Source: Candidatus Giovannonibacteria bacterium RIFCSPLOWO2_12_FULL_43_11c (GTDB taxonomy: Bacteria; Patescibacteriota; Minisyncoccia; JACPKW01; UBA11713). Taken from it: a DNA stretch of 39,489 nucleotides. The DNA lies in assembly GCA_001780775.1 (NCBI GenBank), contig MFIO01000007.1, positions 1-39,489 of the forward strand, in the 5' to 3' direction. Position 1 is the first letter of the stretch; each line of letters opens with the position of its first letter. A program made the translations under genes and the position numbers. Below, piece by piece: positions 30,436 through 31,420 of this stretch. Below the pieces are notes generated by a model. It saw only the letters and a program-made list of their open reading frames with translations. It was not told the DNA's origin and did no database searches.

Positions 30436-30437
30436 CG

Positions 30438-30465
30438 TTGACTTTTTATGCAGGTTTGCTATAAT
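30438..30465 (+). promoter_or_regulatory. promoter TTGACT-16-TATAAT driving a short terminated transcript
   Basis: TTGACT 30438-30443, TATAAT 30460-30465, starting 2 nt after the upstream stop codon. Confidence 0.8.
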
Positions 30466-30471
30466 GCAAAC

Positions 30472-30546
30472 AGTGAGTGTTCCGAAAGGAACTCTCAACT
30501 ACGTCTCACAATGCCCCGCAATTTGCGGGGTTTTGTGTTTTTTGTT
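30472..30546 (+). ncRNA. candidate small RNA: GAAA-capped hairpin inside an outer stem, then an intrinsic terminator
   Basis: GTGAG(30473-30477)/CTCAC(30505-30509) enclosing GTTCC-GAAA-GGAAC (30479-30492); terminator CCCCGCA-ATT-TGCGGGG (30514-30530) + TTTTGTGTTTTTTG. Confidence 0.6.
30514..30546 (+). terminator. intrinsic terminator of the small RNA unit
   Basis: CCCCGCA/TGCGGGG stem plus T-rich tract. Confidence 0.88.
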
Positions 30547-30573
30547 ACAACTCTTCTTTCTTTAAGTTATAAT
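30545..30573 (+). promoter_or_regulatory. promoter TTACAA-17-TATAAT for raiA
   Basis: TTACAA 30545-30550, TATAAT 30568-30573. Confidence 0.7.
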
Positions 30574-30578
30574 AAGTA

Positions 30579-30639
30579 TGGCCTGGGATACTGGCACTCA
30601 CTAAATGACGTAGTCACGGAGTTAGCCTATCCTAGGCCA
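30579..30639 (+). promoter_or_regulatory. structured 5' leader of raiA (candidate cis-regulatory RNA)
   Basis: 12-bp stem TGGCCTGGGATA(30579-30590)/TATCCTAGGCCA(30628-30639), inner GGC/GCC + ACTC/GAGT and TGAC-GTA-GTCA hairpin; begins about 6 nt after the -10 box. Confidence 0.65.
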
Positions 30640-30655
30640 TTAAAAATAGAATCAT

Positions 30656-31096
30656 ATGCAAATAAAAATAAAATCAACTGGCTTTAAATTAACAGAAGGG
30701 CTAAGAATATTGGCTGAGGAAAAATTGTTGGCTCCGGTGGAAAAGAGGCTAGGATCTGAATTACCAGCGGATCATTTCTTGGAAGTTGAGCTTGCGAAAG
30801 TTACAAATCATCATGAAGAGGGAAGAATTTGGAAATGCGAAGCAAATTTAGCTCTACCGCATATAAAGAGAACGCTTTACGCCAAAGCGATGGCGGAGAG
30901 TTTAGAAGTCGCGATTGACGAAGCGAAAGACGAAATTCTTCGCGAAATTGGCGATTATAAAAATAAACGCTCTTCGCAATTTTTGCGAGTCGCGCGCAAA
31001 TTAAAAGATTATATGCATGTAACTCGTTTGGCGCAAAGCGCCCGCTTTGCAACGAAGCACGCCGGGAATTTGTATCGATGGATTAGGAGAAAATAG
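30656..31096 (+). CDS. raiA: ribosome hibernation/translation-inhibitor factor RaiA/HPF
   Basis: 146 aa; MQIKIKSTGFKLTEGLRILAEEKL..., IWKCEANLALPHIKRTLYAKAMAESLEVAIDEAKDEILREI. Confidence 0.82.
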   Translation: MQIKIKSTGFKLTEGLRILAEEKLLAPVEKRLGSELPADHFLEVELAKVTNHHEEGRIWKCEANLALPHIKRTLYAKAMAESLEVAIDEAKDEILREIGDYKNKRSSQFLRVARKLKDYMHVTRLAQSARFATKHAGNLYRWIRRK

Positions 31097-31166
31097 TTTT
31101 CCACATCTCGACAAGACTTTTTTAAAATGCTATTTTTATAGTGAAAGTTTGAGAGGAGGAAAAAAA

Positions 31167-31340
31167 TTGAAAAGAAAAAGTAAAACAGATGAGGAGGATC
31201 AAAAAAAAGCGTCGACTGATAACCACCAGTTCACTGCGACAGAACTGATGGAGGTGGCGCGTATTTCAACGCGATTTGCTCAAAAAGGCTACCACAAATT
31301 CGGCGATCAGCGAAAAAAGGGAGGTTATCACGATGAATAA
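31167..31340 (+). CDS. short hypothetical protein (57 aa, TTG start)
   Basis: SD GAGGAGG (31153-31159) 7 nt before TTG; KRKSKTDEEDQKKASTDNHQFTATELMEVARISTRFAQKGYHKFGDQRKKGGYHDE. Confidence 0.5.
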   Translation: MKRKSKTDEEDQKKASTDNHQFTATELMEVARISTRFAQKGYHKFGDQRKKGGYHDE

Positions 31341-31395
31341 CTCGGATTCAAACTCCCTATCGACAACGGCTACCGTAGAACATTTACTACGGTAG
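31333..31395 (+). CDS. candidate 20-aa leader ORF reading through the terminator stem
   Basis: GGGAGG SD, ATG 31333, MNNSDSNSLSTTATVEHLLR, stop TAG 31393-31395 in the 3' arm of the terminator. Confidence 0.35.
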   Translation: MNNSDSNSLSTTATVEHLLR

Positions 31396-31402
31396 CTTTT
31401 TG
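31369..31402 (+). terminator. intrinsic terminator/attenuator upstream of secA
   Basis: GCTACCGTAG(31369-31378)/CTACGGTAGC(31387-31396) + TTTTTG. Confidence 0.88.
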
Positions 31403-31420
31403 TATTATCATTAGCGAATT

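Follow-up and report, generated by a model that had tools for sequence, protein, structure and literature searches.

The window, the whole stretch of 39,489 nucleotides analyzed here, is contig 7 of the genome of Candidatus Giovannonibacteria bacterium RIFCSPLOWO2_12_FULL_43_11c (G000; 0.8 Mb, 99% complete). Judged by its RaiA protein, its nearest named relatives are Candidatus Giovannonibacteria (Parcubacteria). Downstream of a sugar transferase gene (PF02397) and ahead of a raiA/HPF-like gene (PF02482; 30656-31096, plus strand), which happens to come next in this lineage, lie two predicted RNA genes, both on the plus strand. One specifies a small RNA (sRNA) and the other a hairpin RNA. An earlier note on this DNA had claimed two promoters before raiA, and both are present. 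The sRNA promoter (30438-30465, plus strand) reads TTGACT-16-TATAAT (11/12, with an extended TG), and that of the hairpin transcript (30544-30573, plus strand) reads GTTACA-18-TATAAT (10/12). A promoter scan, which alone is weak evidence, found 6 promoter-like sites in 1.65 kb versus 2.9±1.5 in shuffled sequences. Among relatives, a near-consensus promoter recurs ahead of the sRNA, and a -10-like box lies no more than 10 nt from the start of the hairpin stem P1 in about half. On the far side of raiA, the 320 bp that lead to secA (31097-31420) contain purine-rich stretches resembling ribosome-binding sites, a possible small open reading frame (ORF), and a strong terminator (31368-31397).

The sRNA is ~72 nt long (30472-30543, plus strand), with its 5′ end placed from the promoter. 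It begins with strand 1, GTGAGTG (30473-30479), followed by a hairpin, GTTCC-GAAA-GGAAC (30479-30492), whose stem and loop vary among relatives; by strand 3, ACTACGTC (30498-30505), which covaries between families; and by an intrinsic terminator (30507-30543) made up of a stem (30507-30537) and a T-run (30538-30543). RNA folding supported the earlier claim of a terminator-ended small RNA, giving both a strong terminator and a stable fold (-33.8 kcal/mol, z -6.2, 0/200 shuffles). The GTGAG/CTCAC stem drawn in the earlier note did not hold up, being neither the predicted nor a conserved fold. In the predicted structure, GAG and CUC form a helix next to the GAAA hairpin, CAC is part of the terminator stem, and ACGUC is unpaired. 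Several relatives have lost CTCAC while keeping GTGAG(T).

The hairpin RNA, delimited by structure prediction and covariance, spans 63 nt (30578-30640, plus strand). Stem P1 pairs 30578-30590 with 30628-30640, and the inner helix consists of GGC/GCC and of ACTC (30596-30599) paired with GAGT (30619-30622), with the apical loop between. Strand 1′, CACTCAC, occupies 30595-30601; strand 3′, GACGTAGT (30607-30614), is the putative kissing site in the loop. The raiA leader had been described as strongly structured, and it is: its predicted fold reaches -29.6 kcal/mol (z -4.5, 0/200 shuffles), with a 13-bp basal stem that closes 15 nt ahead of the raiA ATG. We rejected the possibility that the hairpin is an intrinsic terminator, as U-runs follow P1 in 18% of cases versus a background of 12%, a slight excess, although some families do have such a run, and the possibility that it is a short ORF, as the reading frame is not conserved.

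The defining feature of the two RNAs, absent from the first reading, is their mutual complementarity. The sRNA segment ACUACGUC (30498-30505 in the DNA) is exactly reverse-complementary to the hairpin loop GACGUAGU (30607-30614), and GUGAGUG at the 5′ end of the sRNA (30473-30479) is the exact complement of CACUCAC in the hairpin (30595-30601). Since a single match in one genome could be due to chance, we tested the complementarity in relatives.

Plain DNA similarity searches in the class returned mostly chance matches, so we used covariance models. A first hairpin model, built from 7 sequences, detected the hairpin in 109 of 384 sampled class genomes (E up to 0.5). With a second model, rebuilt from 87 matches, the count for the Parcubacteria class was 135 of the 384 genomes (E up to 0.001), in 111 of 294 genera and with exactly one hairpin in each genome; given the sensitivity of the search, this is a minimum for the prevalence, and most or all of the genomes are metagenome-assembled. 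The RNA pair is kept, in single copy, across about 55 families. A phylum sample of 380 genomes yielded 16 matches, all in the same class, and a covariance-model search of about 348 genomes from the phylum's other classes found no hairpin. At this sensitivity, no hairpin match was obtained in roughly two thirds of the class genomes sampled, G001 of the same genus among them. The G001 locus (L004) has a promoter-like site before raiA and neither RNA there, and its assembly has no hairpin elsewhere; a recent loss of the RNA pair is possible in that genome. A search for a phage origin, which used two exact patterns and was insensitive, found no match in viral contigs.

Compared with the sister species (G002), 63/63 hairpin positions and 94% of sRNA positions are identical, against 60% for the promoter spacer between the two RNAs; both RNAs also precede raiA in G003 and G006. 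Across relatives, 92% of cells in the hairpin stem are standard pairs versus 69.6% in shuffles (0/500 shuffles), 365 cells carry double changes, and sliding the partner lowers pairing to 51% or less, in an alignment that was fitted to the structure and so leans towards it. In loci of family f27 (such as L144, L168, and L113), a second, split hairpin copy seems to flank the inner one, its 5′ half GGCAGGCACTTTCACC upstream and its 3′ half GGAGTTAAACCC downstream. A weak second copy (E 0.4) also lies upstream of the main hairpin in G076 (L134, 2863-2912), where it contains GCTGGCACTCACAAAAGACC and is followed by a long inverted repeat.

To find candidate sRNAs, we looked up to 3 kb from each hairpin, on either strand, for a promoter, GTGRG, and a terminator; complementarity was never used. 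Loop and sRNA occur in compensating versions (loop/sRNA): GACGUAGU/ACUACGUC, GACGUUG/CAACGUC, GACUUAG/CUAAGUC, GGACAC/GUGUCC, GACAAAUAGUU/AACUAUUUGUC, GGACAUAUUU/AAAUAUGUCC, GACAUUAGA/UCUAAUGUC, and, from a genome found afterwards, GGCACUUAU/AUAAGUGCC. For example, G005 combines loop GACGTTG with sRNA CAACGTC, and in G082 and G347 (GACTTAG and CTAAGTC) both sides are altered and pairing is retained. G246, a genome found by the second model only, has GGCACTTAT/ATAAGTGCC.

The fit between cognate sRNAs and loops, summed over 64 non-redundant pairs from 32 families, was 1237, compared with 901±22 for permuted partners; the maximum among 20,000 permutations was 990, so that none reached the cognate value. 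At the level of families, the fit was 608.8 versus 443.2±14.3 (permutation maximum 502). Runs of at least 7 Watson-Crick pairs were present in 70 of 80 pairs (55 distinct versions), a figure that takes the best run per pair and includes 9 sRNAs added by hand, the permutation test on 64 pairs being the controlled test. A few assigned sRNAs fit poorly (G318, G286, G138, and G342), and for part of the hairpins (for example, those of G299, G180, G308, G201, and G249) no sRNA was found within 3 kb. Intermolecular pairing of strands 1 and 1′ rests on few changes because these strands are almost invariant in the 64 pairs; the compensated changes include GTGGGT/ACCCAC in G037 and G372 and GTGAGGA/TCCTCAC in G293. 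On this comparative evidence, we are highly confident in the conservation of both RNA genes, in the covariation of the hairpin stem, and in selection on the intermolecular complementarity. It is very probable that sRNA and hairpin function together as a pair.

In most genomes, the sRNA gene is co-oriented with the hairpin and lies upstream of it, about 90-190 nt away. It is convergent and downstream in members of f36 (G162, G186, G146, and G197) and f27 (G226, G241, G190, and G177), as well as in G362 (f52), G184, and G076; divergent in G306, G311, and G139; and 0.6 to 2.2 kb from the hairpin in G153, G099, G021, G293, and G062. Orientation is mixed even within families: co-oriented in G089 and G173 and convergent in G162 and G186 (f36), co-oriented in G082 and convergent in G362 (f52), and co-oriented in G122 and divergent in G139 (f64). 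Since the orientation varies and the genes can be up to 2.2 kb apart, pairing must be in trans, provided that promoter and terminator correctly mark the transcribed strand of each RNA gene. The convergent arrangement also turns the DNA inverted repeat into a direct repeat, which argues for selection on RNA complementarity.

The special association with raiA and ribosome hibernation that had been suggested for this locus is not supported by its relatives: in most of them, what follows the hairpin is murB, some other gene, or no gene at all. Both RNAs precede murB in G004, G005, G082, and G347, with raiA and/or secA further down. We likewise rejected a raiA-specific element, as G001, G004, G005, and others have no element directly upstream of raiA; it stands elsewhere or is absent. 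An automatic scan of 105 genomes, surely wrong in single cases, found a same-strand ORF less than 200 nt after the hairpin and without a terminator, most often murB, in 63; a terminator after the hairpin in 17; no same-strand ORF within 700 nt in 14; and an ORF at 200-700 nt in 11. Some hairpins stand alone with their own terminator (G014, G027, G050, and G362), and those of G162 and G186 have no same-strand gene nearby. Elsewhere, murB comes before the hairpin (part of f36) or stands next to it in divergent orientation (f27). Taken as a whole, these arrangements suggest that the hairpin usually sits at a transcript's 5′ end, but with a following gene that varies and may be missing.

For the window and 20 related loci, Rfam gave no match at the gathering score, and relaxing E to 5 added nothing above chance level. 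The structures are conserved and covarying and, as the earlier note had thought possible, distinct from the raiA motif. The raiA motif, or ModT (RF03072), is a larger single RNA of Bacillota and Actinomycetota with 8 paired regions and 2 pseudoknots (PMC11706538). It resembles the present pair as a structured RNA near raiA, but here both RNAs consist of one or two simple hairpins each, raiA is an incidental neighbor, and RF03072 was unmatched. LOOT RNA, a candidate-phyla motif, is a conserved structured RNA that also occurs in OD1/Parcubacteria. It differs in being one RNA, of about 43 base pairs and six helices (PMC7657543), and had no Rfam match here. 6S RNA (RF00013) had no match in the window or the whole genome of G000, and SRP RNA (RF00169, RF01854) had none in that genome; on these negatives, we rejected an SRP or 6S RNA in disguise. 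The M domain of Ffh (PF02978), present in all 14 control genomes, was not found in G000 either. Because neither it nor SRP RNA was found in a genome that is 99% complete, the signal recognition particle seems to be lost or unrecognizable in this lineage. No description of the RNA pair turned up in the part of the literature that we covered, and an earlier one may exist.

Type I toxin-antitoxin modules include locus-linked sRNA pairs, in which two small RNA genes lie side by side, in many cases with opposite orientations, and share a short complementary stretch. The present pair is similar in being two adjacent small RNA genes with short complementarity and differs in being a class-wide, single-copy pair beside housekeeping genes. 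By eye, neither the sRNA nor the hairpin contains a toxin ORF of note; the window hairpin does have an ATG..TAA of 8 codons, whose frame is not kept in G082. In CopA-CopT of plasmid R1, loop kissing with an mRNA leader is the first contact on the way to a four-way complex (PMC10798244). The likeness lies in two RNAs with loop-loop complementarity for first contact (here computed), in a possible extended four-way complex, and in a target hairpin in an mRNA leader. However, CopA is antisense and almost perfectly complementary to its target, whereas here complementarity is confined to the loop and adjacent strands, the genes are non-overlapping in every arrangement seen, the pair is chromosomal, and the orientation varies.

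We consider it fairly probable, from sequence comparison and folding, that two separately transcribed structured RNAs pair in trans by kissing loops and act as one bipartite noncoding unit in the Parcubacteria class. The first contact would be loop-loop kissing between ACUACGUC and GACGUAGU. Such kissing is predicted to be favorable because ACGUC of the sRNA is unpaired and the hairpin loop is largely open; the net energy over about 8 pairs in the window is -6.4 kcal/mol, and estimates for five examples range from -3 to -8.5 kcal/mol. As in CopA-CopT, the contact may then grow by strand exchange into a four-way complex, which is possible because GUGAGU and ACUC of the sRNA can pair with ACUCAC and GAGU of the hairpin. 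The exchange step gains support from G279: its loop is short, and there the sRNA forms 9-10 pairs directly with GAATTGGAGT.

Simpler origins of the complementarity fit the data poorly. Complementarity over 8 nt is not rare by itself in one genome, and an inverted repeat in the DNA or an artefact of local composition could produce it, but compensating changes in 32 families, far beyond permuted pairs, and the direct repeat of the convergent genomes, which means that no DNA palindrome is conserved, make chance or a DNA-level repeat exceedingly improbable. A cis pseudoknot within one read-through transcript, with the terminator merely an internal hairpin, is very unlikely. The co-orientation and spacing in most genomes, and the order A-B-A′-B′, would permit an H-type pseudoknot; however, between the two parts lie a terminator and a promoter-like site, and convergent and divergent genomes keep a complementarity that a single transcript could not use. 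Equally hard to sustain is a diverged member of a known family (raiA motif/ModT, LOOT, 6S, SRP RNA, or a known riboswitch). The position before raiA, the single-copy, structured nature of the RNAs, and a phylum with some poorly modelled RNAs speak for it; the Rfam negatives speak against it, and to our knowledge a two-RNA anatomy with intermolecular pairing matches none of these families.

Control of the antisense type, by contrast, is a real if doubtful possibility. The hairpin would be the 5′ leader of the downstream mRNA, and the sRNA a dedicated trans regulator of its translation or decay through the kissing complex. The hairpin lies at or near the inferred transcription start, the nearby ORFs in 63 of 105 genomes fit this scheme, and CopA-CopT provides the precedent. 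Against it, the downstream gene varies by family (murB, raiA, and others) and in many is absent or behind a terminator, the hairpins of f27 and part of f36 lie beside or after murB, and the paired bases are well upstream of the start codon. The hairpin would often form the first 60 nt of the following transcript (murB in most, raiA here) and yet is kept without a following gene. Since it outlives any one downstream gene, we lean towards the complex itself as the functional object, and we infer that the pair acts as a bipartite unit and not solely as the switch of a single gene. Tentatively, and with less than even confidence, we suggest that the RNAs are subunits of a bipartite RNA machine of the Parcubacteria class (Paceibacteria) with its own housekeeping role, probably with a protein partner, whose halves are encoded apart and assemble by kissing and strand exchange.

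Covarying intermolecular pairs that persist despite changing gene order and orientation are unusually clean evidence for an RNA-RNA interaction in trans. Parcubacteria are mostly uncultured, and little is known of their RNA biology. If the pair acts as a regulator, its reach would be class-wide, and we know of no class-wide RNA regulator in Parcubacteria; if it is a bipartite RNA, it would represent a new kind of RNA assembly.
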